Program-made: the position numbers and the translations under genes
Source: Zygnema cylindricum
Taxonomy: Eukaryota > Streptophyta > Zygnematophyceae > Zygnematales > Zygnemataceae
NCBI GenBank assembly: GCA_037447655.1
Contig: JBBHKE010003062.1
Span: 308,154 to 372,153 of the forward strand
Direction: 5' to 3'
DNA length: 64,000 nt
Shown here: positions 19,498 through 41,000 of the stretch, one piece after another
Layout of the letters: the number at the start of each line of letters is the position of its first letter
Position numbering within the stretch: the stretch's first letter is position 1
Notes under the pieces: model-generated
What the model was told of the DNA's origin: nothing
The model's database searches: none
The model's input: the letters and a program-made list of their open reading frames with translations, nothing else

Positions 19498-19499
19498 CT

Positions 19500-20077: not shown

Positions 20078-20109
20078 CATTGTTGTAGTCAAGGTTTCTC
20101 CCTTGGTTC

Positions 20110-21090: not shown

Positions 21091-21099
21091 TGTATAAAT
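21091..21099 (+). promoter_or_regulatory. TATA box of the R1 LTR promoter
   Basis: tgtataaat follows a pyrimidine-rich ctgtctctccc block. The same arrangement, agcttgtataaata, occurs in both R3 LTRs (27746 and 33101), and R1's 3' LTR has it at 24209. Conservation across diverged LTR families supports a promoter role. Confidence 0.6.
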
Positions 21100-21448
21100 G
21101 GCTAACTTTGGGCAGCCATAACTATCAATTTACTTGACCATTTTCAGTGATTCTTTTTGCTGCGCACTCACGGGAGTCTAGGCTACACAGGGGTGTAGTC
21201 GGTCAGAGTTTTTGTCTGCAAGGGTGGCTGTATTTCTAAGGGAAAGTCAAAGTGGGTGAATGTGTCCAAATCTCATATTCTAACTTTGCATTCTGTGGTG
21301 GAACTGAGCACACAGAAAGTGTTATTTCACAGGGGTGAATCTATATTGGGGTTCTGACTGTCAAGGGGTCAGTCACTTGGGTTTATATTAACTTGGAGTC
21401 GGCACTATCTAGATTAGCTTCTTTTGGATCTGCATACTCTGAGGGCCA

Positions 21449-22429: not shown

Positions 22430-22896
22430 AAAAAGGGGTTTGCATCTTTTGTAGGGAACCGGGTCATTATATGGAGGAATGCCCTTGTTTGGAAAAACTT
22501 AGAAGTTGGAATGTGGATGAGGAGGACGAAGAGGAAGAGGAGAAAGAGGATGAAGAAAAATTGGAGCTTCTTCACATCGGTAGAATGGGGAAGAGAGAAA
22601 AGTACACAGAAATTGGACGAAGGCAACAGTGTGCTTTTGGAGGTATAAGGGAAGTAAAGAGAGAGGAGATACTTGAAGAAGTTCAAAATATTGAGGATAG
22701 TTTCATAGATATTTTGGAAACAGAAAACTGGTCGGAAAGGGAGACTTCAACGGATTCCGAGGAAAGGGGAGAATTAATTCTAGAGGGGGTTTTAAAGGAT
22801 AGGGGAGAAGAGAAATATTTATTGGGAATTAAAATAGAAAGTGATAGTGGAAAGAATTCCATGGGAGACAGTGAGGGAAGTTCAAAAATGGGGTAA
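22426..22896 (+). pseudogene. R1 gag C-terminal part with CCHC zinc knuckle
   Basis: In a frame shifted from the gag above, the sequence encodes CIFCREPGHYMEEC, a canonical CX2CX4HX4C knuckle for nucleic-acid binding. A long acidic stretch follows (EDEEEEEKEDEEK) and then an unrecognised tail. R2 has the same order, including a CAFGGIREVK block that R3 shares as CAFGAIREAP just before its protease. Confidence 0.75.
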
Positions 22897-22901
22897 TTAT
22901 C

Positions 22902-23316
22902 ATGGATAAAAATATGATTACGGAAGTAGATCTTATGAGGAACCTAGTGGGGACTAGTGGTTTTTGGGAATATTTGGAGGTGGATGGATTTGACATCATT
23001 ACTTGGTGTGATGTCTCTTGTGAAGATGTGCCTGTAAAAGGGTTATCATCCGGGTATGTGTTGAAGGTTGGGGATGGGGCTGGTTGTTTGAATTTCAAGA
23101 GGGAAAGTGGATTTAGTGTGGATGGAAAAGGGAAGAGGTGGATAAAATCTTTGCTCGGATTTAAGAAAAATGGGATGTTAAATAAAATGTGTGATACAAT
23201 TATCATTTCAGTTCATTTAATGCACTGTGTTAAATACTTAAGTTTTATGAAAGGAAAAGGAAAAAGAAAAAGAAAAAGGGGAGGGGGTGTTTGTTTACTT
23301 GTTTGTGGAAGTTGAA
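22902..23316 (+). pseudogene. R1 remnant of RNase H end of pol
   Basis: The frame aligns with the R3 RNase H region: LMRNLVGT matches VMRYLVGT and SSGYVLKVGDGAG matches TSGYVLYVGGGAC. The catalytic parts after this are lost. R1 therefore arose by deletion of most of pol. R2 has the same remnant (34330-34683), so the deletion predates their divergence. Confidence 0.7.
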
Positions 23317-23330
23317 AGGAAAATAGACTA

Positions 23331-23344
23331 GAAAATAAGGGGAG
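23331..23344 (+). promoter_or_regulatory. R1 polypurine tract
   Basis: gaaaataaggggag lies directly before the 3' LTR, the expected position for plus-strand priming. R3 (32314-32327) has the same sequence and R2 (34732-34745) a close variant. Confidence 0.75.
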
Positions 23345-24586
23345 TGTTGATATTTGAGTATTTTATAGACCTGTATTAGGATAGAAAAAGAGCTGAGGCG
23401 GTCTGCCTCTAACTCCCCTTTCCAAGCCCCCATACTTGTTGTAGTCACTGAAGGCTGGATAGGGAGCTAGAGCCATGGCTGCCTAGGCTCTCTAGAGAAG
23501 ACAGGGGGTAAATTAGGTAGACTTACCAAAAGTTAGTTGACGGACCCAGGAATTGATCCTGGTACCTACCGTCCGTCAATCCTCAGTAGCCGTTAGCTCT
23601 AGCCGTTATGTCTAGAACTGATATTACGATATATAGGGTTTGACAGATATATATATCGTCATATGTAGATTAATCCGTTTAACGGCTAATAGATACTTAG
23701 TACATAGATACAGTTTAATTTAGTACGAAGTACGGAATGGGGGCAGAACGGATACCGCGCATTTGTTTCGATAGCGAAACAAATACCGCGCATTTGTTTC
23801 GACAGCGAAACAAATACCGCGCATTTGTTTCGATAGCGAAACAAATACCGCGCGTCGAATTTCAGCGGCTAGGATTGTAGCCGATTTTGATCGGACGGCC
23901 ACGATAGGTGCCGCGATCACGGAACATGTACTTTTGGCGTTTTTCAGCCATCGCCACGTAATGTGACACGTGGCGCGACAATGTTGGATTGCGGCGACTC
24001 CGGAGATTGCGGAAACAAATCCAGCTATGACACGTGTCGACAATTTGGCCATGTTGTACAATGGCCGTACAGAAAGTACACCGGCACCTGTACTTTTATG
24101 TACGACACAGTAATTTGATTGGTGCCGTACTTCAGTAGATAGAGTTTTAGAGGGGGAATAGGACTTAGGAAATTTTGGGTAAATAGCTGTCTCTCCCAGA
24201 GAGCACCTTGTATAAATGGCTAACTTTGGGCAGCCATAACTATCAATTTACTTGACCATTTTCAGTGATTCTTTTTGCTGCGGACTTAAGGGAGTCTACG
24301 CTACACAGGAGTGTAGTCGGTCAGAGTTTTTGTCTGCCAGGGTGGCTGTATTTCTAAGGGAAAGTCAAAGTGGGTGAATGTGTCCAAATCTTATATTCTA
24401 ACTTTGCATTCTGTGGTGGAACTGAGCACACAGAAAGTGTTATTTCACAGGGGTGAATCTATATTGGGGTTCTGACTGTCAAGGGGTCAGTCACTTGGGT
24501 TTATATTAACTTGGAGTCGACACTATCTAGATTAGCTTCTTTTGGATCTGCATACTCTGAGGGCCAATGGAGGTCTCAGAGTTTCA
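23345..24586 (+). repeat. R1 3' LTR
   Basis: It is 1242 bp like the 5' copy, starts TGTTGATATTTG and ends GAGTTTCA before CCGAT. It repeats every landmark, including the gag ATG, which here would read into element M. Confidence 0.9.
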
Positions 24587-24591: not shown

Positions 24592-25352
24592 CTCATTGCG
24601 GATCGCAAATCGCCGTCAGCGCGGTCTGGTCAGACATTTACGTCATCATTGTCCTCGGTTTCATCTAGGTCATACCTAGAGGGTACCGAAGAAGACATTC
24701 CGAAGGAAGCCTTTCCCACTCCTCACACTCGTAGGTACATTGCCAGCCCAGCTTTGGCACAAGCGACACATCTTCCTCTTTACGACATGGCTTCCTCTTT
24801 AGAGGGATCCGTAGGTAAGATGCAATTCTGCTTCTCCGGAATAAAGGACACCATGTCCTTATCGCATTTCCGCATGTTATACGACACGGAAATGACGGAT
24901 CTAGCCTTTAGATATCAAGATAGGTTTGACCTCTGTGTCGCCTTTTCCCTTCTCGGTTGATACCTCCGTGGTACGACCCTCACTCTATACACTCGCAAAT
25001 ACGAGGATGTTCTTGCGATGACAGAGTACGTGGCTCCCTTTGCGGGGTTACCAAAAGTCCTCGGCCAGGAGGATATCCCATATCAGGCTGGGAGACCGGC
25101 AATACTAGATGCTAACGGGGACGAGTTGTATCCAGCTATCCCCGAGGTTCCTCGTCAGTATGCAGTGGCTACTTGAGCGGGGGTCGCTGCTAGAGCGGGG
25201 GGTACCATTCCTTTATGCAACCCGCTCTCAATAATGTTTTACATCCTCCAAGAGGAGTAGCGGATGCAAAATCCGGATCAGATTAAAGATTTGATGAACT
25301 TTGAGCGCAGGCTAGGTGAAATTGCTTCTGCCTTGCGAGCTCGGATGGAAAC
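24592..25352 (+). pseudogene. Element M gag, middle piece
   Basis: The frame continues from 20226 as LIADRKSPSARSGQ and runs to the R2 insertion at 25353. Stops at 24958 (TGA), 25174 (TGA) and 25258 (TAG) interrupt it. A helical stretch with AFRYQDRFDLCVAFSLLG and YLRGTTLTLYTRKY resembles the capsid part of Ty3/gypsy-like Gag in general form, but the similarity is too weak to name. Confidence 0.6.
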
Positions 25353-26450
25353 TGTTTAAATTTATGTATTTTCTAGGTCTGTATTGGAAAAATAAATAGA
25401 GTGTTAAAAAAAAGGTAATTAACAGTTCACTTCTATATTTTTGTTAGAATGTAAAGAGAGAGAAAGAGAGGACCAAATGCAGGTCATGGTTACTGCGTCA
25501 TTTAGAAGGAGGCAGAGTGAATTAGAAGGTATTTTACTAGTTTTAGCAAAATAGTGCTTCTGGTCAGATTTGAACCGGGGTCTGCAAAATTCTATGCAAA
25601 CCTACACCTTATCCATTAAGGCACTAACAAAACGGTACACATGATATGTTTCACGCATATATATCTATTAATCTAAAAGACTTATTCGTAGCAGACTAAC
25701 GAAAACGCGCATTAATCAATTAATGCATGGAAGCGAATCGAAGCCGTATAAATACAACTAATCGGACGGCCACCATTATAGCCGCCACCCACAATAAGCT
25801 TTCGGCCGCCTTTGGGGATAACCTTACGCAGTGCCACGTGGCGCCACATTCTTTGATATCAGAGAAGATGGGAGGAGGAACCATAGCTCCCGATTTGGCA
25901 AATGTCACCTTGTAGACCATGTCGTACAATGGCCGTACAATAAGTACATCGCCCATTGTACCTTCTTGTACTATATAGTGTTCCTATTGGACAAGGGTTT
26001 AGTAGTAGGTATTCGTGAGTAGGCAGACCAAGACTTAGTGATATTTACTTACCTCTCTCTAAGAGAGCTTGTAACTATAAAGGTCATCTTTGACCAGGCA
26101 TAACTTAATGCTCGGGTGAGCAAATTCATTGATTCTTTTTGCTGCGGACTCAAAAGAGTCCAAGCTACACAAGGGTGTAGTCGGTCAGAGTATTTGCGTG
26201 CAAGGGTGGCAGTTATTCAGTGGGAAAATCAAAGTGGGGAATATTGTCCAAAACACATATGCAAGCTTTGCATTCTGTGGTGGAACTAAGCACACAGAAG
26301 GTCTTCTCTTCACAAGGGTGAAGGTGTATTAGGGTCCTGATTTTCAAGGGATCATTCATTTGGGTTTATATCAACTTGGAGTCGGCACTATCTAGATTAG
26401 CTTCTTTTAGATCTGTGAATTCTGTGGGCAATGGAGCCCATAGAATTTCA
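25353..26450 (+). repeat. R2 5' LTR (1098 bp)
   Basis: It starts TGTTTAAATTTATG (G to T at base 5 compared with the 3' copy) and ends GAATTTCA. It holds a clear antisense tRNA-like segment (25560-25624), the leader hairpins ggactcaaaagagtcc and ctacacaagggtgtag (26146-26180) and the gag ATG at 26431. Confidence 0.85.
25560..25624 (-). other. Antisense tRNA-like segment in the R2 LTR
   Basis: On the minus strand it reads like a tRNA gene: a D-arm CCTT-AATGGAT-AAGG, an anticodon-arm stem (GTTTGC...GCAGAC), and a T-arm with CCGGTTCAAATC close to the B box. In the 3' LTR (34954-35016) the middle arm is a perfect 8-bp stem. The acceptor stem is poor, so it is not a working tRNA gene. Comparable segments sit at the same place in R1 (20421-20470) and R3 (27187-27250, 32542-32606). 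Confidence 0.55.
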
Positions 26451-26971
26451 AGTTATTGGCCCACCATCTTGGTTGCCTATGTTCGATGGAACAAACTTCA
26501 GTTATTGGGAGTTTACGATGAAGGGATTGCTTTTCGAAAAGCATTTGCAGGGAATTATTTCGGGGCAAGTGAGGTGTCCGCCACTCGGCTTTGGTGGAAC
26601 TCATTATGGAGAATCATCATGGGCTTCCAAAAAAACCAATTGGAGATCAGATGTAACGAAAGGTGAAGGGAAAAGCATTGCCATTAAAGGGAAAAAGGGG
26701 AGAAGGATAAAGGGACACCTATGGTGAAGGGAGCTAAGCTCTCCGCTACAACTCCACTTAGAGGAGTTATAAGCAAAACTGAAGAATATCAGTGTAAAAT
26801 TTGGGAGTATAGAAACACTTTAGCAAAACATCTCATACCTAGATATGTGTCTAATTCCATAGCTATCACTCCTTTAAGTCTAACCAAGTCTTCAGAAATT
26901 TGGGAAACACTAAGTTTGATTTATAAGAGTGAGACTATTCAGAGGCAGCAGTTAGTAAAACAGGAAATTGG
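26431..26971 (+). pseudogene. R2 gag, first piece, interrupted by R3
   Basis: ATG 26431 is inside the LTR. The frame opens MEPIEFQVIGPPSWLPMF and keeps the CAG codon that is a stop in R1. A frameshift near 26720 separates it from the continuation, which is cut by R3 at 26972 inside the segment LVKQEI. The R3 target duplication is ATTGG (26967-26971), with ATAGG on the other side. Confidence 0.75.
26452..26465 (+). promoter_or_regulatory. R2 primer binding site, one mismatch
   Basis: GTTATTGGCCCACC starts one base after the LTR and differs by one base from the initiator tRNA-Met anticodon-arm complement seen in R1 and R3. Confidence 0.7.
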
Positions 26972-27970
26972 TGTTGAAATCACTTGATTTAGGTGAGATA
27001 TTTTCTAGGTCTTAATTAAAATAAAGAATGAAAAGAAAAGCATTGGCAGCTTGCCTCCACCTTCTCTCTCTGGCCCCCACACTTGTTGTACTCATTGAAG
27101 GAGAGAGAGGGCGGTGGAGCCATGACCGCCTTAGCTCCATAGGCAGAGCTTAAGAGTGACCTAAGTCACTCTCAACCAAAAAGGTTGAGTCCAGTAGGAC
27201 TCGAACCTCCAACCGGTAAAGCGAGGCTTAGCCGTCAATCCTTACCAATCTGTCGTAGCAGTTCGTTAGGATACATGGGGTTTGATAGCTATTTATACAA
27301 TAGACAAAGAACTAAATCTGATTAACGGAATTACAAATAGGATACATAAAAACTAGTTGGGAATTTAGTGATCACGAAACAAATGTACCAAACATTTGTT
27401 TTGAACGGCTGGGAATTAAACCCGATTTGGATCTTACGGCTCACATCATTGCCGAGATCCTGGAATGGCCGCTTTGGCGGTTTTCGGATGTAACATGACC
27501 TGGGGACACATGGCAATATGTCATTGGGAAACCGGAATCCCGGGGAGCGTGAGGACAAGTCCGGAGGAGACAGACGTCCACTGCATGGCCTTGTCGTACA
27601 CAGGCCGTACAGAAAGTACATCGGCCATAAACCTTTTTTGTACTATACACTCTTCTAATTGGTTCCGTACATCAGTAGATAGGGGTTATGAGAGGGTTTA
27701 GGACTTAGTGAATTGAGGAGGTAGGCGCCTCTCTCCTAACAAGCTTGTATAAATATTAGCACTTTTTACCACTCGATAATTAATCGCCTGGTTAGGCGTT
27801 TTCAGTGATTCATTTTGCTGTGGACTCAACGGAGTCCAGATTGCACAGGGGTGTAGTAAGATTATCTATTTATGTGCAAGGGTAGCAATTGCTCTCGTTG
27901 AAAGTGGGTTAGTCAAAAACTACCGAGAGGCTTCCTCAATTTTGGTCCAAATGGAGGACACAGACTTGCA
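26972..27970 (+). repeat. R3 5' LTR (999 bp)
   Basis: It starts TGTTGAAATCAC and ends GACTTGCA. It holds the antisense tRNA-like segment (27187-27250), one long hairpin (27377-27401), a TATA box (27746), the leader hairpins ggactcaacggagtcc and gcacaggggtgt (27821-27858), and the gag ATG at 27951. Confidence 0.88.
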
Positions 27971-28890
27971 AGTTATGGGCCCACCCTCTAGGGTGCCCAT
28001 ATTCAACGGATCTGGATTCATTTACTGGGAAGCTATGATGACTGGGGCATTATGTGAGAAACGATACTAGGGTATTGTTAGTGGACAAGTGAAACGTCCA
28101 TCTGAAGGAACTCCACCAGGGTTTGGAGGAGTGAGGTTTTTTTGCAGCATGATCTGCTCCAACGGAGGAGACAGATGATGGGGACATCAGTGTGTTCGAA
28201 AAAGGGAAAGGAAAGGAGACACCTCTCACTCCTATTGCCATGGCACCCGGAGCGGTGGCTGTGAAGACCGAGGAAAACGACATTCAGATGTGGGAGTACA
28301 CCAACATGAATGCCACGCACTTCATTCTGAGGCACCTCACCCAAGCGTTAGCACCTTCTCACCTTCAAATCTTCAAGGCCGAGGAGTTGTGGATGACCTT
28401 AGTGGAGATCTATAGAGCTGGCACCATTCAAGAGCTTCAGCTGGCTGAGCAAAGGCTGATTAGTTATACTTTCAAAGGAGGAAAGATGTTGGACTATTCC
28501 ACCGATCTCTCTTCTCTATACATGGAGATGGAAAGTGCCGGATGGACAGGCACAATGAAGATGAAAGTTAACACTCTCATCATGAAACTGCCTGAGGAAT
28601 ATGAAAACATAGTGTACCGAGTGCAAGAAATGGATGATAGTGCTTGGAAGTGGAGCACCGTGGTTCGAATGATACTTGTATAAGAAAACACCATTGAGAT
28701 CCGAAGAGGAGGAAAGAGTGTTCAAGCTCTAGCTGCCGGAACAGACCGTTGGAGAAAGGATCCGAAGAAGTCGTACAACAGCTTCAGAGGGGAAAAGGAC
28801 CAATCTGGAGAACCGAGGACTCCAAAGGGCATTTGTCATTTCTGCAAAAAGCCGGGGCACTTCATAGCTGATTGCATCAAGCTATCTGAG
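27951..28890 (+). pseudogene. R3 gag with CCHC knuckle
   Basis: It starts at ATG 27951 in the LTR (MEDTDLQVMGPPSRVPIF). A stop (TAG) follows a KRY segment, at the site where R2 has CAG, and a frameshift near 28150 leads into the main frame 28192-28683. The Gag helical domain is followed by CHFCKKPGHFIADC (about 28835-28876), a canonical CX2CX4HX4C zinc knuckle. A stop (TAA) at 28681 interrupts it. Confidence 0.8.
27972..27985 (+). promoter_or_regulatory. R3 primer binding site
   Basis: GTTATGGGCCCACC lies one base after the LTR and matches the initiator tRNA-Met anticodon arm exactly over 14 bases. Confidence 0.8.
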
Positions 28891-29100
28891 CTGAGGCTTC
28901 AAGAAAATCGTGGAGGTGGTTCTTCTGGAGGGAAGAAGAAAGCACTTGTGGTCACACGAGTGAAAGGAGAGACCGTGGAGGACGAGTCCTCCGAGGAGGA
29001 GGATGGGGAGCTTCTTCTTGACGAGAATCTAGAGGAGAAGGAGATCTCTCGGAAACAGAAGTGTGCCTTTGGAGCCATTCGGGAAGCACCACAAGAGGGA

Positions 29101-29466
29101 TGGATCATCGACTAAGGTGCATCCATGCATATGTGTTGTGACAGGCACCTCTTCACTAAGCTAAGAAAGATCCCTACTGTGGAAATAGAGTATGGGGATG
29201 GGAGAGTAGTTACCACAGATCTAGTGGGATCGGTAGATCTGAAAGTCTTAGTGGAGGGTAAGACTTCTATTCTCACCTTCTCAGATGTGCTCTACATTCC
29301 TCAGTTGAGTAAGAATCTTGTGTCTACTTCTGTATTAGATGACAAGGATTTTGATACCTTCACTAGAAAGGGAGTCTTTACAGCTAAGTATGGAGATGAA
29401 GTCTACTTCACAACAGATAAAGGTAGCCAAGGAATGTTTAGGCATAACCTGAGTAATGAAAAATAG
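29101..29466 (+). pseudogene. R3 aspartic protease, catalytic triplet broken by a stop
   Basis: The copia protease signature is expected as WIIDSGAS followed by HM. Here it reads WIID, then TAA (29113-29115), then GASMHMC. The nonsense change removes the residue after the catalytic Asp. Downstream, VLYIPQLSKNLVSTSVL is the conserved protease-to-integrase segment of copia polyproteins. The frame ends at 29466. Confidence 0.8.
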
Positions 29467-29489
29467 AGTGCTTACTATGGTCGTGTTCC

Positions 29490-30467
29490 TAGCTTGATGA
29501 TCTGGCATAAGCCTTTGGGACATGTGCATTTTGTAGACTGAGGGAAATAAAGAAGCTGGGTGTAGTAGAGGGCATTCAGTTTGGGGATAATCAGGTGATG
29601 GATGACTGTAGTGGTTGTGCCCAAGGTAACGCTCACATACTTCCCTTTCCCAAAACTGCCACATATAGAGGTGAGAAAGTACTAGATCTGGTCCACACAG
29701 ATATCTGGGGACCAGCAAGAGTGCCTTCGGTTGGGGGGAAGAGGTATATGTTGACAATTACCGATGATTGGTCCAGATATTCTAGAGTGTACTTCTTGAA
29801 AAAAAAGTTTGAAACACCAAAATGTTTTAAAGAATACAAAGCCAGGAGTGAGAAGTTGCACGGAACCCCCATTAAGAGAATAAGGAGTGATAATGGGGGA
29901 GAGTACACCTCTAACCAGTTTGAGGATTATTTGAGAGATAAGGGAGTTCAGCATCAGAAAACTGTACCGAGTAATCCAGAACAGAATGGGGTAGCTGAAA
30001 GGTTAAATCGGACTTTGGGAGATAGTGTGTGCAGCATGTTGGCAGATAAGAAAATAAGAAGAAGATTTTGGGCAGAGGCCATGAACTGTGCTAACTACAT
30101 TAAGAATAGAGTCCTCACCACAGTTGTTAAAGGAATGACCCTTTATGAGAGATGGGTTGGGAATAAACCGAATGTTTCTCACTTGAAAGTATTCAGTAGT
30201 CAAGTTTACACTCTTGACACAGATAAGAAAAACTAGAAATTAGATGCTAAAGGGAAACCGGGATATTTTGTGGGATACGATGAGGATGTCAAGGGATATA
30301 GAGTCTATGACTTAGATAAACAAGATATCACTCTGGTAAAGCATCTAGTTGTCATGGATGAATGGAAGTCTTTTGATCCCTTCAAATACACTAAGAAAAT
30401 CAGAATAAGTTTTGAGTCAGAGAGTTAGGAGGATTTAGATCTTCCCAGAAGGGACACTAGTGAAAAC
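29490..30467 (+). pseudogene. R3 integrase
   Basis: The zinc-binding region is seen as WHKPLGH and, after a degraded stretch with stops near 29540, CSGC. The catalytic core follows with all three acidic residues: HTDIWGP, RSDNGGEY and EQNGVAERLNRTL. The core frame runs 29595-30236, then stops (TAG 30234 and another near 30426) interrupt the C-terminal domain (KPGYFVGYDEDVKGYRV). It joins element DNA to the host. Confidence 0.85.
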
Positions 30468-30745
30468 ATGATTGCAGATTCAGGGGAGATAAAAGATGGG
30501 GGAGATATATCAGAATCCCCTCATATTACTACACCCTTTGAGGAGAGAGAGGAAGAGGAGCCAGAACCGGTTCCCATGGATAGGGGAGCTGATGAGACAG
30601 TTCGGAGGAATCCAAGACTTCCCTCCATTCCAGTTCGGACCTTGAGGGAGGACGAAGGAGCGGCAAAAGGCTTGAAGGAAAACATGCTGCTTGAAAGGTA
30701 ACAAAGCTTTCTCATCCAGATGAGCCTCAGTCATACTCGGAGGCA
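30468..30745 (+). pseudogene. R3 integrase-to-reverse-transcriptase linker
   Basis: An acidic linker (EEREEEEPEPVPMDRG) ends with RRNPRLPSIPV, the basic, proline-rich block often found before copia reverse transcriptase. A stop (TAA, 30699-30701) and a frame change follow. Confidence 0.6.
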
Positions 30746-32266
30746 ATGGATAGTCCGAAGAAAGAAAGGTGGGTCAGAGCCATAAATGATGAAATGGCTT
30801 CAATCATGGAGGCAAATACTCGGAAGCTGGTGGACTGTCCACCAGATAGAAAACTCATTGGGTGTAAATGGGTATTTAAACTAAAACTGAATTCAAATAA
30901 CACCATTAAGAGAATTAAGGCTCGGCTGGTGGCAAAAGGATTCACTCAAAAAGAAGGAATAGATTATGAGGAGACCTTTGCTCCGGTGGTTCGACTCCCA
31001 TCTGTAAGGATTCTCCTTAGTCTAACAGCAGCGGAAGACATGGAAATTCACCAGATGGATATCAAAACCGCCTTCCTCAACGGTGAACTAGAGGAAGAAA
31101 TCTTCATGCGGCAACAAGAAGGTTTTGTAGAGAAAAGAGAGGAAAGCAAAGTCTGGAGACTTATAAAGTCTTTATATGGACTGAAGCAGGCCCCCAGACA
31201 ATGGAATAAGAAACTAGATGAGTTTCTTACGAGTCTAGAGTATATTCGGATCAGTTCTGACCATTCCATTTATATGTTTGAGGATGAGAATGGTGTGATT
31301 TTTATTGCAATTTATGTGGATGATTTGCTGGTGTTGAGTAAGTCTATAGAGAAGATAAATAGGCTAAAGAAAAATCCGGGAAGCAGATTTTACATGAAGG
31401 ATTTGGAGGAGGCTAAATATATTTTGGGAATTCAAATGGAAAGAGATACGGGGAAGAGGATCATCAGACTTACTCAGAAAGAGGTTATAAGAAATATGCT
31501 AGAGAAATTTCAGATGGAGAATGCAAATAGTTGTACCACTCCCATGGACTTGAAGAAAGTAAGTGATGGAAGTGTAGAAGGAGGAGTGATAATGTTAGAT
31601 GATCAGATGAGTCCAGAAGAGAGACAGTTTATGAAGTCTATTCCTTACACACAGGTTGTAGGAAGTTTGATTTACTTTATGAATTGTACTACACCTGATA
31701 TAGCTGCAGCAGTTGGAGTCCTCAGTAGGAGTCTGAATGATCCTAAAAAGAGAGACTGGGAGGCAGCCAAGAGAGTAATGAGATACCTGGTGGGAACTAG
31801 AGATCTATGGTTGCATTTGGGAGGGGAGCACACTGACATAACTACTTGGAGTGATGCCAGTTATCGAGATACACCTATGAGAAGATGCACTTCTGGGTAT
31901 GTATTGTATGTGGGGGGAGGTGCTTGTTGTTGGAGCAACAAGCAACAAAAGGTTGTTGCTCAGTCCACTATGGAGGCTGAGTACATGGCCTTTTGTTCTG
32001 CTGTGAAAGAGCTGATGTGGTTGAAGTCCTTCTTGCAAAAATTGGGGTACATGAAGAAGGGAGTACATGAAGTGTTTTGTGATAATCAGGCTGCAATTGC
32101 AATTGCAGCCAATCCAAAACATCATTTCAAAGCTAAGCATATGGATATAAGATTGAGCTTTGTGAGGGAAAAAGTGGAAAATAAAATTGTGAATTTGGTG
32201 TATAGGAGTCATGGGGAAATGGTGGCTGATATGATGACAAAGCGTGTGCCATCTCCCAAGCTGTAG
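30746..32266 (+). pseudogene. R3 reverse transcriptase and RNase H (506 codons open)
   Basis: Reverse transcriptase motifs are all visible: KWVFKLKLNSNNTIKRIKAR, the AFLNGELEEEIFMRQQEGF block, SLYGLKQAPRQWNKKL, and the catalytic IAIYVDDLLVLS. The RNase H domain follows with WSDASYRDTP, STMEAEYMAFC and CDNQAAIAIAANPKHHFKAK, ending HGEMVADMMTKRVP. This is the typical copia C-terminus. The frame is uninterrupted, so this half has stayed intact while gag and protease decayed. It lacks its own start and would need the upstream polyprotein. It copies element RNA into DNA inside the particle. Confidence 0.92.
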
Positions 32267-32313
32267 TATTGTAGAGAGAAATGTGGATTAAAAGAGAAAT
32301 TAAAATTAGACTA

Positions 32314-32327
32314 GAAAATAAGGGGAG
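32314..32327 (+). promoter_or_regulatory. R3 polypurine tract
   Basis: gaaaataaggggag lies directly before the 3' LTR, identical to that of R1. Confidence 0.75.
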
Positions 32328-33325
32328 TGTTGAAATCACTAGATTTAGGTGAGATATTTTCTAGGTCTTAATTAAAATAAAGAATGAAAAGAAAAGAATT
32401 GGCAGCCTGCCTCCACCTTCTCTCTCTGGCCCCCACACTTGTTGTAGTCACTGAAGGAGAGGAGGGCGGTGGAGCCATGGCGGCCTTAGCTCCATAGGCA
32501 GAGCTTAAGAGTGACCTAAGTCACTCTCAACCAAAAAGGTTGAGTCCAGCAAGACTCGAACCTCTGACCGGTAGGGCGAGGCATAGCCGTCAATCCTTAC
32601 CATTTTGTCGTAGTAGTCCGTTAGGATACATGGGGTCGATAACTATTTATACAATAGATAGACGACTAAATCCGATTAACGGAATTACAAATAGGATACA
32701 TAGAAACTAGTTGGGAATTTAGTGATCACGAAACAAATGTACCGAACATTTGTTTTGAACGGCTGGGAATTAAAGCCGATTTGGATCCAACGGCTCACAT
32801 CATTGTCTAGATCCTGGAATGGCAGCTTTGGTGGTTTTTGGATGTAACATGACCTGGGGACACGTGGCAATATGTCATTGGGAAACAGGAATCGCGGGGA
32901 GCGTGAGGACAAGTCCGGAGGAGACAGACGTCCACTCCATGGCCTTGTCGTACACAGGCCGTACGAAAAGTACATCGGCCATAGTACCTTTTGTGTACTA
33001 TACAGTGTTCTGATTGGTTCCGTACATCAGTAGATAGGGGTTATGAGAGGGTTTAGGACTAAATGAATTGAGGAGGTAGCCGCCTCTCTCCTAACAAGCT
33101 TGTATAAATATTGGCACCTTTTGCCACTCGATAATTAATCGTCTGGTTAGGCGTTTTCAGTGATTCTTTTTGCTGTGGACTCACGGGAGTCCAGACTGCA
33201 CAAGGGTGCAATTAGATTATCTATTTATCTGCTAGGGTAGCAATTGCTCTCGTTGAAAGTGGGTTAGTCAAAAACTACCTAGAGGCTTTCTCAATTTTGG
33301 TCGAAATGGATGACACAGACTTGCA
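32328..33325 (+). repeat. R3 3' LTR (998 bp)
   Basis: It starts TGTTGAAATCAC and ends GACTTGCA, followed by ATAGG. Landmarks are as in the 5' copy. Differences between the two R3 LTRs are clearly more numerous than between the two R1 LTRs by eye, so R3 is older than R1. Confidence 0.88.
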
Positions 33326-33330
33326 ATAGG

Positions 33331-34070
33331 GGCCTATGTTTATAAAGGTGGTAGCATGATAGAGTTTTGCAATGATATTGCTCCGCTATATGTTGAGCTT
33401 GCTAGTAAGGGATATGTAGAGTCTGAGGAGAGAAAGATTAATACACTACTCATGAAACTCCTAGATGAGTACGAAAACATCATTTATTGTATGCAGGCAA
33501 TGGGTGGCTCCTCATGGACTTGGAGCTTTACCATGGGGATAATTCTTGCGAGGGAAAGCACTTTGGAGCTTCGTAAGGGAAGTCACAGGGTGGATTCATT
33601 TACAGCTGGTGGTGATTGGGGAAAGCGTGATGAGAGGAACGGCGGTGACGAGCGGTAACGTGATGAGAGGAAAAAGGACAAAGGTTAACCTTATAGGAAC
33701 TTTTGTGGAAAGAGAGGGAGAGGAAAAGAAAAGGGAACTTTGAAATAGGGGGTTTGCTTCTTTTGTAGGGAACCAGGTCATTATATGGAGGGATGCCCTT
33801 GTTTGGAAGTACTTAGAAGTTGGAATGTGGATGAGGAGGAAGAAAGGGAATAGCAGAAAGAGGATAAAGAAATCTTAAAGCTTCTCCACATCGGTAGAAT
33901 AGAGAAGAGAGAAAAGTACACAGAAATTCCACGAAAGCAACAATGTGCTTTTGGAGGTATAAGGGAAGTAAAGGGAAGGGAGGTACTAAAAGGAGTTAGA
34001 CATGATGTGGATGTCAAGGAGTATAGAAAGTCAGATCTAGAATCTATAATTTAAAAAGGGAAAAATAAAA
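33331..34070 (+). pseudogene. R2 gag continuation and zinc-knuckle part
   Basis: The frame resumes with the segment AYVYKGG as in R1 and continues through the Gag helical domain. Stops occur near 33657 and in the knuckle region, where the R1 knuckle equivalent (cagg of CREPGHYMEGCP, 33765-33800) is out of frame. The charged RDERNGGDER repeat is shorter than in R1. Confidence 0.7.
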
Positions 34071-34329
34071 ATAATGAGGATAATTTTATAGATATTTTAG
34101 AAACAGAAAATTGGTTAGAAAGGGAAAGTTTAACGGATTTTGAGGAAATGGGAGAAGTAAATCTAGAGGGGTTTTTGAAAGATAGGGGAGAAGAGGAATA
34201 TTTAATGAAAAGGTTTAGGGGAGGAGAAATTTTTTATTGGGAATAAAAATAGAAAGTGATAGCGGAAAGAATTCAATGGGAGAGAGTGAGGAAAGTTCTA
34301 AATATGGGGTGAGTATCATCGATTAAAAT

Positions 34330-34683
34330 ATGAGTACAGAAGACGTAGATTTTATAAGGAACTTAGTGGGGACACTTGTTTTTTGGGAAAATTTGGGGGG
34401 TAATGGATTTGACATCACTAATGGGACTGATGGCATTTATGAAGGTGTGCCTGTAAAAGGGTTAGCATCTTGGTGTGTGTTGCGAATTGGAGATGGGGCT
34501 CGCTGTTTGAATTGCAAGAGGGAAATTGGATTTAGTGTGGATGGAAAAGAGATGAGGTGGATAAATTTCTTTCTCGAATTTATGAAAAATGGCATGCAAA
34601 ATAAAATGTGTGATGTAATTATTATTTCAGCTCATCTAATACACTTCTTTAAATACAAGGGTATTCACTTAAATGTTTTATGA
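34330..34683 (+). pseudogene. R2 remnant of RNase H end of pol
   Basis: It aligns with the R1 remnant (FIRNLVGTLVFWENL, VLRIGDGARCLNCKREIGF) and through it with the R3 RNase H region. It is open for 117 codons although pol function is gone. Confidence 0.65.
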
Positions 34684-34745
34684 GGAGAAAAAAAAAATGT
34701 GTTTAGTGGGAGTTGAAAAGAAAGTAGACTAAAACATAAGGGGAG

Positions 34746-35887
34746 TGTTGAAATTTATGTATTTTTTAGGTCTATATTGGAAAAATAAATAGAGTGTTGA
34801 AAAAAGGTAATTGATAGTTCACTTCTATATTTTAGTTAGAATATAAAGAGAGAGAAAGAGAGGACCAAATGTAGGTCATGGCTGCTGCGTCATTTAGAAA
34901 GAGGCAAAATGAATTAGAAGGTATTTTACTAGTTTTAGCAAAATAGGGCTTTTGGCCGAATGTGAACCGGGGTCTGCAGAATTCTATGCAGACCTACGCC
35001 TTATCCATTAAGGAACTAACGAAATGGTACACATGATATGTTTCACGCATATATATATCTATTAATCTAAAAGACTAATTCGCAGCAGACAAACGAAATC
35101 GCGCATTAATTAATTCATGCATGGAAGCGAATCGAAGCCGTATAAATACAACTAATCAAACGACCATCATTAAAGCCGCCACCCACAATTAGCTTTCGGC
35201 GGCCTTTGGGGATAGCCTCACGCAGTGCCACGTGGCGCCACATTATTTGATATCGAAAAGATGGGAGGAGGAACCATGGCTTCCGATTTGGCCAAAGACA
35301 CGGTAGTAACACTATTCATTTCGTAAATCTTAGGGAACGCGACAAATCGTAATTATTGGCTTATTCCGTCGTACATTGATTAATTTTGTACTTTTCAGGT
35401 TACGGGCGGGCACGGTCGGTTGATTTTTTTTTTCGTAAACGACGGTCGGTTAACGGTTAACAATTTTGGAGCGTGACAAAACTCGGTCGGGCGTCGGTTA
35501 CTCAGATTTTGAAAAAAAAAAAACGGTCGGTTTCGGGTATGATTTTTTTTGACTTTTGCGACCTCAGTGACTCTTTTTGTTGTGGACTCACAGGAGTCCA
35601 GGCTACACAAGGGTGAAGTCGGTCAAAGTCTTTGCGTGCCAGGGTAGCACTTAATCAGTGGGAAAGTCAAAGTGGGGAATATTGTCCAAAACACATATTC
35701 AAGCTTTGCATTCTGTGGTGGAACTGAGCAAACAGAAGGTCTTCTCTTCAAAGGGGTGAAGGTGTATTGGGGTCATGATTGTCAAGGGATCATTCATTTG
35801 GGTTTATATCAACTTGGAGTCGGCACTATCTAGATTAGCTTTTTTGGATCTGCAAATTTTGTGGGCAATGGAGCCCATAGAATTTCA
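34746..35887 (+). repeat. R2 3' LTR (1142 bp) with a replaced internal block
   Basis: It starts TGTTGAAATTTATG and ends GAATTTCA before GAAAC. It matches the 5' LTR except for 35302-35563, where unrelated sequence takes the place of the TATA and promoter part. Confidence 0.85.
35302..35563. other. Foreign block in the R2 3' LTR
   Basis: The 5' LTR has about 210 bp with gtacaatggccgtac and a TATA-like region here. The 3' LTR has about 260 bp rich in cggtcggt and runs of T, then returns to homology at cagtgactctttttg. This looks like replacement by gene conversion from another element or insertion plus deletion; no terminal repeats or target duplication were found. Confidence 0.55.
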
Positions 35888-35892
35888 GAAAC

Positions 35893-36540
35893 TCTGCGAG
35901 AGGCATTATCAGACCTCATGTCCGATGCGGAGGCTTTCCTGAAATTTGTGGGACAGTTTCCAGGTCCATCAAAGAGGTTTATCCAAAACCACCTCAGCTA
36001 GATGTATGGACTGAAATTCACCTTTGAGCAAGTGGCTCAATACGCGGTTGAGTATGAGATGTAGACATCGTGGTGGGACCCTCATGAGGGGTCCAAACCT
36101 CCTCACAGGGAACCGGCTAATCCATCTCCTCCTCCACCTAAAAACCCATGGCCTCCTAATAGGCTCCAGAACACGCCAGCCATGAGAACTCCACCAGTCA
36201 ATCCCGGAAATTGAATGTGTTTCCGATGTGGAAAAACCGGGCACGATGCCCGCATGTGTCCCGACAAGGCCGCCACTTTCACTCATTGCCACCAAAAGGG
36301 ACATTATGTCCATCGGTGCCACATCAATGACCCTAATTTCACTTATCAAAATCAGATAAAAAACGGCGAAATTCCGGCCCGTTCCGCGAAACAAGTCACT
36401 CCGCCTAAGGATACCGAGAAGGAGGAAGCTCGTCCTAAGATCTCTCATAGAGAGGGAGAGAAGTCCGAGCTTCAAGCCACAATGGCGCCCAAGATGAAAG
36501 AGCAATTTGCAGCTTTCATGGCGGAAATAAAACCCTAATT
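35893..36540 (+). pseudogene. Element M gag, last piece, with CCHC zinc knuckles
   Basis: The frame resumes after R2 as LREALSDLMSDAEAFLKFVG. Stops occur at 35999 (TAG), 36062 (TAG) and 36212 (TGA). A proline-rich linker leads to a canonical knuckle CFRCGKTGHDARMC (about 36215-36256). A second knuckle, FTHCHQKGHYVHRC, has its first Cys replaced by Phe (TTC, one base from TGC). A lysine- and glutamate-rich tail ends at TAA 36536-36538. Confidence 0.8.
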
Positions 36541-36547
36541 TACTGGG

Positions 36548-36784
36548 ATGGCTAGGACCGTTGTCCACATGCCGTCGTTGGCCGGGCGAACCCTTCACAA
36601 TTCCACCGTCCAACAATTGGTGACCACATTTGAAAAGAGCTTAGCAGACCATAACCGAGTGGGCAAATTACAAAATTCTCGTGTCCCACTCTCATTTGCA
36701 AAAGAGCCTCTGCTTTCCCTCCTGAAAAACCGCTCCTACCATCGCGGCAAAGGCACTGACGATATTGGATGGCACTATTCATGA
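36548..36784 (+). pseudogene. Element M gag-protease linker
   Basis: This 78-codon frame is in the same phase as the gag piece before it. Its last codons overlap the start of the next frame (36765), so a single frame change joins gag to protease. Whether that is a programmed shift or decay cannot be told from one copy. Confidence 0.5.
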
Positions 36785-37535
36785 GGCTCATCGGGTGAAG
36801 GAGCGATTAAGTATTATTTCAGCGATGTTAGAGGATGTACCAAAAGCCCTTCCCCTCGTTGATGAGGTCGCAGCGGCAGCCGCTTTGAGGGCTCTGCGGT
36901 TAAACCGCAGTCTTTCAGCGGTTCAACCGGTTACTACGGAAGAGCGTCGTAATCTCGATCACCATATCAGTTTCCTTGATAACTCTCGGGGATCATTCTC
37001 AGTGAACGGTGTTCACCCCACTCTTCCTCTTATGGACACCGGGGCCAAACCCGTGATCCTCGGATCCGGATTTGCATTGAAGCCTGGTTTGAGAGCAGAC
37101 AAGCTTCAGGCGACCGCTACCCGCCTTCTTACTTTGGTTGGGACCACGGAGCCGGTCCTCGGAATCACAAAGTACCCCCTCATCTTTCGGTTTCAGACAG
37201 AAACTGAAAATGAGTTCGTTGAAATTGTCGTCAGAGCGTTGGTCACTAAAAGTGAAGACTATAAGTGTTTGGTGGGTCAATACGTTATATTCCAAATTGG
37301 CAGTGGCGTGGACATGCACGACCAAACATTCTTTTACCGACCTACACACTTTCCAGAGCGAAAAATTTGCCTCCCTCTCACTTCAACCCGCCGACCTTTG
37401 CCCACCATGGCTCACTCAGCTACGGCTCTTCCCGCATTTTTGGGGAACTCCGTTGGGGAGGAAATTTTCCACTCTTTTTCGGCCGAAGAAATCATACCGG
37501 ATAGTTCTTCCTTACCCGAGCTCTTTGCGGAATAG
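36765..37535 (+). pseudogene. Element M retropepsin-like aspartic protease
   Basis: The frame of 256 codons includes VHPTLPLMDTGAKPVILGSG (about 37013-37072). Asp-Thr-Gly-Ala in a hydrophobic setting is the active-site signature of retroviral-type proteases. A leader of about 80 residues precedes it. The frame ends TAG at 37533-37535 and continues in the same phase straight into the methyltransferase, so protease and methyltransferase were probably one polyprotein. Processing of Gag-Pol is the expected role. Confidence 0.75.
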
Positions 37536-38123
37536 GGTATTTTTATCAATTCTCACATATTTGACAATATTTATAAGTCCACATTATCTATTCCATTAAC
37601 AACTATCCCTCCTATACCTACAGTTGCAACCAATCCTTCAAGTTTCCTTCCTATCAATTGGAAACCCGTACAGCTGAGTCCTTATACGGACGGGGTCCTT
37701 ATTTTAGATCTATTCCCTAGGATCGGAACTTCACTATTGTCATGTTTACAGAATGGTCTCCTCATCCGTCACTACTATGCAGTAGAAATTGATGCATTAG
37801 CTAGGAAAGCACAATTGCACCACTATAATCTCCTGCATTCACAGTATCCACACTTGTTTCCAAAGTCAGCCTTTCTACACATGCACACTGCTCTTCCACA
37901 AGACATCCGCATCCTTAGTAATCATCATCTCCGGGATGTCGAACCGAAAGATCTTGTTTTCGAAGGGTGGGAGTGTCAAGGCATGTCTTGGGCCGGCAAA
38001 GGTCTTGGTTTGGCGGATCCCCGTACCAAATTGTTTTTTGAGCTTTTGAGGGTCCTTCATTTTCTTCAAACCATGGCCAAGCCTGTCGGATACATTTTAG
38101 AGAACGTCGCCGCTTATAATGAT
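37536..38123 (+). pseudogene. Element M C5 cytosine-DNA methyltransferase, N-terminal half
   Basis: The order and spacing of C5-methyltransferase motifs are clear. Motif I is VLILDLFPRIGTS (37695-37733, cofactor binding), motif II is YYAVEIDALAR (37773 on), motif IV is EGWECQGMS with the catalytic Cys codon at 37974-37976, then GLADPRTKLFFELLRVL (motif V), and motif VI is YILENV (Glu at 38100). The catalytic Cys is usually preceded by Pro (PCQ or PCN); here it is Glu. The LFFE..R and ENV context is closest in feel to DNMT3-type enzymes. The second half, with target recognition and motifs VIII-X, falls into the assembly gap. The product would methylate cytosine in DNA using S-adenosylmethionine. 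Confidence 0.8.
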
Positions 38124-38133
38124 NNNNNNNNNN
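38124..38133. other. Assembly gap (10 N)
   Basis: Ten N interrupt element M within its methyltransferase. The sequence after the gap does not continue the frame, so the true gap may be larger than ten bases. Confidence 0.99.
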
Positions 38134-38799
38134 TAAACGCAGTGGGAGCTTGAATCCTACATGCTTTTTAACAGCAGAACACAAAAAGCTGGGTGAAGCT
38201 GCTGTTTTTTGTAGTAGAAGTTGGAAGAGAAATTTTGTGTACGCGCTACATAAAATTTTGATCCATTAAATACATTTATTTATCCTTGTGTATAAGCGTG
38301 CACGGCATTATAAGCTTCATTAAGTGTGCTAAAAGTTTCTGTTTTCTTTCATCCCTTCAGCGATACCAAACAGACAAGCGTAAATTATGCTGTTTCTTTT
38401 AATATGTCAAACAAACCAAAACAGGCAAAAGCAGTTCATGCCTAAAACAAAAACGTACCCAGAGTTTTAAGGCTACGGTAAAGTGCAGCTGGCTGGTTCT
38501 CTGTTTCCGTTTCTATTTATTTACATAAATTACCTAGTTTTAAAATACATCGCGCATGTGTTTTAAAGAGAAGGTTGAAGATGATGTTTTTTGTCGTCGA
38601 AGTGGGTCGAAAAACACAAGACGACAATTTTTCGTACATCCTAAGTTCGAGGGTGACGCAAATTGTACTCTACAAATTTGCAATTCCTTCGTACGGTTGG
38701 AACTTAGGCAGTACGACGCTAAGTTTTACAGGAAAACGACAGAAAAAAACCCTTACTTATGCACATGGGGACACACCCTAAGTCAAATGTGTGTGAACA
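38134..38799. other. Intergenic DNA with the end of a family E element
   Basis: A family E right terminus acatggggacacaccc ends at 38778 and is followed by TAA. The preceding block matches the start of the copy at 8441 in reverse. Its other end is not visible. 38134-38560 contains nothing recognised. Confidence 0.5.
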
Positions 38800-39305
38800 T
38801 ACCTGTGCGCAGCCATTTTATTTATATGTGGCTGCCGCAGTTTTGTTACAGTAAACCTGCGCCGACCGTGTGAATTGTTTTTTTTTTATGAGGGTCGACG
38901 TTCGTAAGGGCGACAGTTTTTTATCCGCCATAACAATATTTCGCCATTCAAAGTTGTTCGACGGATTGACTGTCAAATCTAAAATCAAAGGTACATAGCT
39001 TGTACGAAACTGTACTTCAAATGTACAGTTTCTGACAACTATCTGCGCGCAGCAAAAATCGTCTCTGCGTTTAGCAATTCCCTAAAAAAATTGACAAATT
39101 TGTACGGAGAGAAGATGTTTTCAGTGGCTAAAAAATTAGGGAATTGCTAATCGCAGAGACGTGGTAATATTGTACCGGCGGTTAAAATATTTTCGCGCTT
39201 GCAAACGTCGACCGTCATAAAAAAAAAAAAAAATCACACAGCCGGCGCAGGTTTACTGTAACCAAACTGCGGCAGCCACATATAAATAAAATGGTTGCGC
39301 GTAGG
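38800..39305. mobile_element. Family G fold-back element
   Basis: The two arms are long inverted copies: the blocks cagccattttatttatatg and cgcaggtttactgtaac recur inverted, and the inner arms pair as ctctgcgtttagcaattccc with gggaattgctaatcgcagag. The whole of about 500 bp could fold on itself. The centre carries a family A-like gagaagatgttttcagtggc. No coding capacity. Confidence 0.75.
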
Positions 39306-39925
39306 TACACCGCGAATCGTAATTAGAGTAAATTACTCTAATTCTGTCGCTCGAAATTTCGACTCTATCTCATCAAATAGAGTATCGATTCTAATTTTTT
39401 CATTATTCTAATTTAGGTGTGGTTTAATTAGCGTAAAAAATTATAATATAGGTTATTTTTAAATAGTGTGGAGTATGGACGACGTCTGACCGTGCAAAAT
39501 TGTACTTTTATAAGTAAAAAGGTACAAATAATAATTTAATAGAATCGCGCTCGCAGGTGAAATCGCACTAAACAAAAAATCAATCACATCAAAAAAAAGC
39601 CGCTTGCATAACTCTCGTCCGTCGACAGCATCGTCGTCAGTGTGAACATTAACTGACATTCAATGCGACAAATATTATTAGCGTCATAATGACGTCAAGA
39701 CTATAACGGACTGACACATTTTGTACGTCTACGTAATTTAGTGTTCATAATTATCGCGCATATAATTATCGCCGACATAACCCATTATAGAATAACTAAA
39801 TAAATTAGAGTAAACTTCATAGTTGAAAAAGCTCTATCACATAAATTAGCGTCGATTACTCTAATTGTGTTTTTTTGTTTTTTTACTCTAATTTTTTCAT
39901 TGCTCTAATTGCGATTCGCGGTGTA
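39306..39925. mobile_element. Family B element (620 bp)
   Basis: tacaccgcgaatcg and cgattcgcggtgta are inverted ends. It directly abuts the fold-back element. Internal sequence resembles the three copies at 9594-11172 (gtgtggagtatggac for gtgtggtgtacgg). 39926-40167 holds nothing recognised. Confidence 0.75.
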
Positions 39926-40167
39926 GTTTATCTTTTCACGTTAGCCGCAAAAATGAAATCAACTTGTTGTCACGTCCACCGTGGACGTGACGACGTGTCA
40001 TTTTAGTTTCATCGATTTGTATACGCTGGTAGTCGGGTACGCATTTTTATTTTGTACGAAGTTTATTTGGTTTCGTGCGAGTTTACACAAGTTGTACATT
40101 GTCCTTTAATATGTGTGTAAGTTCAATGTAACGGTTCGCGAGTTGATTTCATTTTTGCAAGTAAACT

Positions 40168-40660
40168 ACCTGCGCGCAGCCATTTTATTTATATGTGGCT
40201 GCTGCAGTTTGGTTACAGTAAACCTGCGCCGGCCGTGTGATTTTTTTTTTTTTTATGACGGTCGAGTTTGCAAGCGCGACAATATTTTAACAGCCGGTAC
40301 AATATTCCGCTAGTCAAAGTTGTTCGAGTCAGAACTGAAATTAAAGGTACGTAGCCGGTACGAAATTGTAATTCAATTGTACAATTTCTGACAACTACAC
40401 CGCGAATCGTTATTAGCGTTGAGAAATTATTAGTGTAAAGAAAAAATTAGCGTCATTCATTCTAATTTAGTGCCGGGAGACGTGGCAGATTATGGTCCAC
40501 GACCTTAAATAGTGTAGTTTACTCTATTTAAGGTATTAATGTCAAAAATTTGGGGTGCCGATATAGAGTTCATAACGCTAATAACGATTCGCAGTGTACC
40601 TGCGCGCAGCAAAAATCGTCTCTGCGATTAGCAATTCCCAAAAATTATTTACGCTAATTA
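40168..40660. mobile_element. Second family G element, split by a family B MITE
   Basis: The left arm starts cctgcgcgcagccatttta and matches the element at 38800. The B-type MITE 40396-40597 interrupts it, after which cctgcgcgcagcaaaaatcg resumes an inner arm. The right arm is missing. Confidence 0.6.
40396..40597. mobile_element. Short family B MITE (202 bp)
   Basis: tacaccgcgaatcgtt and aacgattcgcagtgta bound it. It contains gagacgtggcagatt and ggtccacgacctt, a block shared with 48070-48295 and with both arms of the palindrome at 51792-52148. Confidence 0.75.
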
Positions 40661-40805
40661 CGATTAACGATGGGTACATGTGAAAATAAAGAACAGCGCT
40701 GCAACAAACTGCACATAGACACGGTTTTAAATCACGGTCCTCAGTTTACAATTCACTGAACCCTGATTAAGAACCAAGCGCTTGTACTCTAATTCCTGAC
40801 TACAG

Positions 40806-40997
40806 TACACCGTGAATCGCTATTGGGGTTAATGTGTTTTTTGTCACGTTAAACATCTAATCTCCGTTCACACATCCGATTGTGGATTGGACAGTTGTGA
40901 TTGAAAGATAGGATTCGCAGCTTCCGGTTGGCCGTTTCAAATTGAAAATCGGACAAGTGTGTACGGAGAAAAGATGTTTTAAGTGGCGAAAACATAA
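40806..40997. mobile_element. Family A MITE lacking its right terminus
   Basis: It starts tacaccgtgaatcgc and runs to the internal block aaaagatgttttaagtggcg, then stops at the TAA before the family D element 41001. The D insertion probably removed or separated the end. Confidence 0.65.
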
Positions 40998-41000
40998 TAA

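Follow-up and report, generated by a model that had tools for sequence, protein, structure and literature searches.

A Ty3/gypsy-like retroelement with a DNMT3-type cytosine methyltransferase and a PHD finger in a streptophyte genome

Background

In streptophytes and dinoflagellates, DNMT3 enzymes are reported from both long terminal repeat (LTR) and DIRS elements (PMC12344493, which, citing de Mendoza et al., writes Copia), and the described system nearest to the one treated here is KnitGypsy-Dnmt3 of Klebsormidium nitens (PMC5890265). We analysed a window, that is, the whole stretch of 64,000 nucleotides, which lies on contig C2298 of the host assembly (G000; 352.8 Mb in 2,689 contigs) and contains a copy of a retroelement in which a C5 cytosine methyltransferase (MTase) follows the protease (PR). 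The first-pass annotation of this window had described such captures as reported in charophytes and dinoflagellates but rare; the nearest described element, that of Klebsormidium, makes the capture one of a known kind. Like the window element, KnitGypsy-Dnmt3 is of Gypsy type, has a Dnmt3-type MTase inside the Pol frame, is intronless and under purifying selection, and has DIRS-like repeats in the order A-ORF-B-A-B (ORF, open reading frame). As far as its main-text description sets the two apart, the present element differs from it in that the window family has about 39 further copies in a single genome of different size, that gag and pol of the longest copy share a frame, that a PHD finger follows the integrase, that there are two lineages with ECQ or PCQ in motif IV of the MTase, and that the PCQ lineage has a fixed TAG. 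Two retrotransposons of Symbiodinium, SymbioDIRS-Dnmt3 and SymbioLINE-Dnmt (PMC5890265), have captured MTases too, the former with DIRS repeats, but they are described with a tyrosine recombinase or a LINE endonuclease where the present element has a DDE integrase.

The PHD finger brings two further groups into the comparison. Chromoviruses are Ty3/gypsy elements with a chromodomain after the integrase, a histone reader thought to steer insertion, and here a PHD finger is found in place of the chromodomain. Ginger1 DNA transposons (PMC2836005) have a Gypsy-type integrase with extra C-terminal domains, Ulp1 and PHD being present in one listed family, but they are DNA transposons and the text available mentions neither a reverse transcriptase (RT) nor an MTase for them.

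Results and discussion

Gag, protease and methyltransferase in succession

From the sequence alone, a zinc-knuckle gag, a DTGA protease and a C5 MTase had been read in succession at 35893-38123, the latter two in one frame broken only by a TAG. Pfam searches, together with the order of domains in two related proteins, confirmed the succession, with gag and protease matches that stay below the Pfam cut-offs. The zinc knuckle lies in 36215-36538 (PF00098, E 7.5e-4; PF13696 is below its cut-off too), the protease in 36726-37535 (PF13650, E 0.0064; PF13975 likewise below), and the methylase in the frame 37536-38153, where PF00145 scores 33 bits (E 5.6e-8) against a cut-off of 22. Protease and MTase do share one frame with a single TAG break at 37533-37535, and the gag knuckle is in a different frame. 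In Markov simulations of 35893-38123 an open stretch of 269 amino acids arose in 0 of 500 runs and frames of at least 205 amino acids in 19 of 500, and therefore the MTase call rests on homology and not on frame length.

The join of protease to MTase recurs in two ENA proteins, in both of which the protease (PF13975) and the methylase are above the Pfam cut-offs. P0002 (565 amino acids) contains PR and MTase and is 36% identical to the window over these two domains. P0003 (1,279 amino acids) joins a gag-like part to PR and MTase within a single frame, in the order of the window, and its residues 563-1010 match window positions 36879-38123 by tblastn; its gag-like part shows two knuckle-like motifs by eye and no knuckle family above the Pfam cut-off. 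Protein searches with the MTase fragment alone gave no match, the matches having come with a query that included the protease or was padded in length. Among viral contigs we found three phage C5 enzymes and no PR-MTase join, and a search of prokaryote genome contigs gave no match.

Other genomic copies place the methyltransferase within the element

The window copy, itself decayed, stops at an assembly gap of N, with neither the 3' half of its MTase nor any RT present there. This is what would be expected if an ordinary host MTase gene, or a retrocopy of one, had come to lie next to a piece of retroelement, whether through the gap or through a chance insertion. The rest of the host genome makes this explanation very improbable. 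At least 123 C5-methylase matches were found in it (123 of 782 candidates scored), with open frames of up to 2,395 amino acids. With window positions 36000-38123 as DNA query, a further 40 rows matched at identities of 83-99%, some of them along a portion of the query, or 39 places if two adjoining rows on C1042 count as one; since 40 of 736 candidates were scored, this number is a floor. The PR-MTase join thus recurs at about 39 further places, matched along the query in whole or in part, as well as in P0002 and P0003, and single frames continue from it into RT and integrase. The longest, the 2,395 amino acid frame of locus L012, reads gag, zinc knuckles, PR, MTase, RT, RNase H, DDE integrase and PHD finger, with PF00145 (E 3.3e-12), RVT_1 (2.9e-30), RT_RNaseH (5.4e-35), Integrase_H2C2 (PF17921, 1.8e-15), rve (PF00665, 1.9e-12) and PHD (2.4e-10) all above their cut-offs. 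The copy nearest to that of the window, locus L028 on C2337, is decayed, with lesions in MTase and integrase, and has the MTase followed by RT-RNase H (90% identical to L012), integrase and the PHD end.

Copies spanning the region of the gap run from MTase into RT without a gap, in agreement with the earlier view that the retroelement has its own MTase, and the joining of a host gene by the assembly gap was refuted by these contiguous copies. Approached from the RT, the MTase was found upstream in 26 of the 27 copies examined; these belong to the best 30 of 99 rows (98 of 4,468 candidates scored) and had been found by likeness to an MTase-bearing copy. A listed MTase match lay upstream at 21 of the 30 places, 20 times at about 1.05-1.11 kb and once at 2.4 kb. 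Six of the nine remaining places were fetched and five of these had an MTase, the sixth (C2304) having none within 701 bp. The MTase is not a separate host gene in these copies, and the element is a high-copy, Ty3/gypsy-like retroelement with the MTase between protease and RT.

Ends, repeats and class of the element

The copy on C1344 consists of repeat A (931 bp), the coding region, a polypurine tract, repeat B (243 bp), GC, and again A and B; it ends in TGT...ACA and is flanked by the target duplication TTGG. This A-ORF-B-A-B arrangement was read in five copies (C1344, C829, C1915, C2602, C449) and its 3' half in C1407, and the joint GACAGCTGTC is identical in all six. Target duplications of 4 bp were present in all four copies with both ends readable (TTGG, AAGG, CCCT and CCCC). 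The A repeats are 99.5-100% identical in C1344, C829 and C1915, which means that these three copies were inserted recently, and 82% identical in C449. Queries with the C1344 repeats A and B gave no match in the analysed stretches of C2337, C2577, C1374 and C544, these stretches not having been extended. An inverted repeat, CCAGCTC...GAGCTGG, stands directly before the G-rich tract at the 3' end, before B, and is kept in C1344, C829, C1915, C2602 and C449.

The order PR-RT-RNase H-integrase of L012, with the MTase inserted between PR and RT, is that of Ty3/gypsy elements, as are the DDE integrase with its H2C2 zinc binding and the short target duplication. The repeats are split and do not form two simple complete LTRs, and for this reason we call the element Ty3/gypsy-like. 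It is not of DIRS type, given that an rve domain and no tyrosine recombinase was seen in the scanned pieces of L012 and L016 and that target duplications are present. The element unites a DIRS-like layout of split direct repeats with a DDE integrase, as is stated for KnitGypsy-Dnmt3 (PMC5890265), and with target duplications, and for this replication layout we have no mechanistic explanation here.

The window copy and its nested insertions

In the window the element is broken into pieces by two Copia-type insertions, as follows.

20077-20226, + strand: 5'-most stretch of the MTase element, upstream part of the coding frame, ending in the target duplication CCGAT (20222-20226)
20227-24586, + strand: nested insertion B, Copia-type with gag; LTRs 20227-21468 and 23345-24586, 98.9% identical; target duplication CCGAT
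24592-25352, + strand: N-terminal gag of the MTase element, with stops, ending in the target duplication GAAAC (25348-25352)
25353-35887, + strand: nested insertion C, Copia-type; LTR copies 25353-26450 and 34746-35887; target duplication GAAAC
26971-27981 and 32327-33334: inner repeat pair of insertion C, around Copia gag, integrase and RT frames
35888-36725, + strand: C-terminal gag with zinc knuckle(s), decayed by stops; P0003 residues 184-477 match at 35888-36709 (tblastn, E 1.8e-14)
36726-37535, + strand: retropepsin-type aspartic protease (DTGA) and linker, ending in TAG 37533-37535; homologous to P0002 and P0003
37536-38123, + strand: N-terminal half of the DNMT3-type C5 cytosine MTase, assigned by PF00145, PDB matches to DNMT3A and the tree; truncated by the gap
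37965-37982 and from 38100: MTase motif IV GWECQG and motif VI ENV, respectively
38124-38133, no strand: assembly gap, 10 N

The gag that had been placed at 35893 is therefore there in its C-terminal part and is not whole: the N-terminal part lies about 10 kb upstream of 35888, at 24592-25352, displaced by the two nested insertions, and further coding sequence is found at 20077-20226. P0003 residues 11-186 match window 24826-25356 (tblastn, E 2.6e-22), and the same part of gag is present at 3731-4497 of L028. The C2337 copy is uninterrupted, L028 positions 1501-3736, 3731-4497 and 4493-4641 corresponding to window 38123-35888, 25353-24587 and 20226-20078. Because that copy is contiguous where the window is split, the nested insertions are later events. 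Both have target duplications of 5 bp, and when the empty sites are restored a single frame stays open locally, including across the site adjoining 20077-20226, a piece colinear with L028 4493-4641. The 5' part of the window element extends at least to 20078; to the left it is bounded by a reversed, diverged Copia-like LTR (19484-20077), which truncates the element on this side and of which the far end was not found. Insertion C holds a further Copia-type element (26971-33334) with gag, integrase and a 523 amino acid RT frame between the 93% identical repeat pair.

Compared with L028 in steps of 200 bases, window 35888-38123 is 100% identical over 36288-37487, 93.5-99.5% to the left of this tract and 96.5-98.5% to the right, and the N-terminal part of gag is 87.5-88.5% identical. 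The copy on C1264, which has the same junction with insertion C, is 91-99.5% identical to the window throughout. The tract of full identity shared by the window and C2337 could reflect either gene conversion between the copies or an assembly artefact beside the gap.

Beyond the gap the sequence does not align to the continuation of the element on C2337, except for one shared repeat. Direct and inverted repeat copies, 82-94% identical, lie at 38800-39307 and 40167-40397, and 38134-41000 is rich in CpG (observed/expected 1.56). A host gene of the RINT1/TIP1 family has a long frame at 58677-61199 (PF04437, E 1.9e-44).

Nature of the methyltransferase and of the PHD finger

Domain searches of the frames uphold the C5 MTase motifs, and the best PDB matches by both sequence and fold are DNMT3 enzymes. 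A profile of P0001-P0003 scored 42.2 bits with DNMT3C, 41.9 with DNMT3A and 37.3 with DNMT3B, followed by HhaI (22.7), HaeIII (21.5), DNMT2-type enzymes (12.8-14.2) and DRM2 (11.0); neither DNMT1 nor CMT was among the 52 PDB matches listed for this profile. A structural model of the L012 MTase (332 amino acids) has a mean predicted local distance difference test score (pLDDT) of 73.1 and a predicted template modelling score of 0.78, being low at residues 94-108 and 218-256, and in its fold search DNMT3 enzymes fill all 50 listed of 768 PDB rows, with a best E of 4e-16 and a TM-score of about 0.6 by query. The model of P0002 was poor (mean pLDDT 40) and was left out. As in DNMT3A, DNMT3B and DNMT3C, the closest among solved enzymes, the catalytic Cys, ENV and the Arg of motif VIII are kept; the element differs from them in the ECQ of motif IV and in that Pfam scans of pieces of L012 showed no PWWP or ADD domain. 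With P0003 as a whole query, three pre-selected phage C5 enzymes scored 39-51 bits against about 29 for DNMT3A, and for this reason a host DNMT3 is no more than a plausible source of the captured enzyme.

The C4HC3 pattern of the PHD finger was found in nine E-lineage loci (17 loci scanned), and its closest relatives by sequence are the fingers of PHF12, Lid/KDM5, BAZ2B, WSTF and PHF21A. Several of these bind histone H3 with unmodified K4. The finger of the element probably reads histones. The C-terminal end of the P lineage is weaker and PHD-like, PF00628 being below its cut-off (E 0.0033).

Two lineages and their stop codons

The copies fall into two lineages. In the E lineage, which includes the window, L012 and others, P0002 and P0003, motif IV is GWECQG (GSECQG at one place, C82), in departure from the canonical Pro-Cys; in the P lineage (L015, L016, L023 and others) it is the usual GWPCQG. 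Glu precedes the catalytic Cys in 17 of 17 E-lineage rows of the MTase tree (16 places) and in the window, P0002 and P0003, and Pro in 8 of 8 P-lineage rows and in the three phage enzymes; one decayed E copy outside the tree (L062, C1147) has Val. The MTase tree unites the E lineage with P0002 and P0003 (support 99/97), sets the P lineage apart (90/86) and leaves the phage enzymes outside (L009, L013, L027, L030, L031, L041, L042 and copies below 70% coverage were dropped). The ECQ change must therefore be old and predate the split from P0002 and P0003. An RT tree that compared these two lineages only (11 E and 4 P rows, no outgroup; L013 and copies below 60% coverage dropped) separates them in the same way (100/100). 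A 13-row alignment shows no variation at the motif IV Cys, the Glu of ENV or the second Arg of motif VIII.

A survey of stops in 22 E-lineage loci (20 places, the window included) found a stop at the site of the window TAG only in the window and C2337, several other loci having stops elsewhere in the PR-MTase linker. Programmed readthrough of the window TAG was therefore rejected, the stop being a near-private lesion of these two copies and not a feature of the E lineage. In those P-lineage copies that matched the search pattern, 6 of 6 distinct loci, a TAG occupies a fixed position between PR and MTase, different from the window site; its context is TAG CAA TTC in five, and in L015 and L016 the MTase-RT-integrase frame is open behind it. 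We read this TAG as a site of probable programmed readthrough, although the loci are closely related (MTase dS 0-0.19). In one of them a second stop follows directly, and L006 and L023 did not match the pattern.

Selection on the domains

Ratios of nonsynonymous to synonymous substitution (dN/dS) were obtained by NG86 from stop-free copies with at least 95% coverage (PHD 90%), using within-lineage pairs with dS above 0.02; L009, L030 and L031 (same places as other loci), L013 (another place, domains the same as in L012) and copies with stops or too short were dropped, and many further pairs were saturated at synonymous sites. The MTase gave 0.18 in one E pair and 0.14-0.27 in five P pairs, two of the four P copies being identical, and the PHD finger 0.08-0.28 in ten E pairs and 0.24 in one P pair. 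For RT, four E pairs gave 0.03-0.28 and one P pair 0.11, and for the integrase one P pair gave 0.12. MTase and PHD finger are under purifying selection in the few measurable pairs.

A possible role for the methyltransferase and its rivals

The explanation that accounts best for the whole, to which we give a probability of roughly 0.65, is that the window holds a decayed, twice-interrupted copy of an element whose MTase would methylate its own complementary DNA (cDNA) and whose PHD finger would steer insertion. The MTase would enter the particle within the Gag-Pol precursor, be cut free by the protease and methylate the double-stranded cDNA before the DDE integrase inserts the copy; the host DNMT1/MET1 would then maintain the CG mark, and the PHD finger on the integrase would direct insertion by the state of the H3 tail. 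A gene with a DNMT1-RFD domain is present in the host genome. We infer the self-methylation of cDNA by analogy, since retrotransposon DNMTs are reported to be capable of de novo methylation of CGs (PMC5890265, SymbioDIRS being named in its discussion), which lends support to this step.

Several observations weigh against this explanation. The window copy is not CpG-poor (observed/expected 0.66-0.98) and its own sequence gives no sign of heavier methylation, the corresponding values being 0.27 for the neighbouring Copia pol (29511-32266) and 0.91 for the window overall. The gap has cost the window copy its 3' end; the zinc knuckle and protease matches of L012 are below the Pfam cut-offs; and the integrase dN/dS is 0.71-0.75 in two E pairs, at very small distances. 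Finally, Glu instead of Pro in motif IV could impair or change the activity of the MTase, and it is at this motif that the L012 model is of low confidence (residues 94-108 below 50).

The last of these points is the basis of a different proposal, in which the MTase has been retained and no longer methylates element DNA, the ECQ change having turned it into an RNA methyltransferase or into a component of the particle that has a structural role or binds nucleic acid. The Glu found throughout the E-lineage tree rows, where P lineage and phage enzymes have Pro, would fit such a change, and so would the tested SymbioLINE DNMT, which did not methylate DNA in yeast and for which RNA was proposed (PMC5890265). 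The three invariant residues (motif IV Cys, Glu of ENV, second Arg of motif VIII) and the E-lineage MTase dN/dS of 0.18 in its one pair speak against it, and we consider it unlikely. Less likely again is that the MTase dampens host silencing or the activity of the element itself, as a host-friendly self-restraint, rather than protecting cDNA; self-restraint is named as a possibility for related elements in PMC5890265, but alone it gives no account of the fixed place of the MTase between PR and RT.

Returning to cDNA methylation and PHD-guided insertion as the preferred explanation, we would extend it only tentatively, and at odds that are rather against us. This may be a long-lived lineage with its own epigenetic writer, a DNMT3-type enzyme retuned by a change from PCQ to ECQ that was preserved across a deep divergence, and acting on cDNA, and its own reader, a PHD finger that aims the copy by the H3 tail, in which case the sister lineage would meter the enzyme by UAG readthrough. 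In DNMT3 enzymes, too, the catalytic domain is paired with an H3-reading domain.

Novelty, host and significance

We found no report of PHD integrases in DNMT-bearing retrotransposons, nor, in the portions available, of DNMT retrotransposons in Zygnematophyceae, in the open-licence PMC literature, and the word PHD is absent from the main text of PMC5890265. The PHD finger in such an element is thus apparently new; the ECQ lineage and the fixed TAG of the PCQ lineage are apparently new as well, no literature search having been made for either. The host, which the first-pass annotation had left to be defined, is a streptophyte by its genes: the genome has nine matches to rbcS and 27 to GRAS on 12 contigs, and GRAS genes are described as having originated in the common ancestor that Zygnematophyceae share with land plants (PMC9915684). 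Perhaps it is a zygnematophyte. No rbcL was found in the host assembly, and a search for radial-spoke genes, made without a working control, gave no match in the host genome, which would fit an alga without flagella.

Although cytosine methylation is a weapon of the host against such elements, here the enzyme is part of the element itself, which keeps it under selection in near-intact copies and pairs it with a probable histone reader. The question of why retrotransposons capture DNA methyltransferases thereby becomes testable in a second green genome, and with two natural variants of motif IV to compare.

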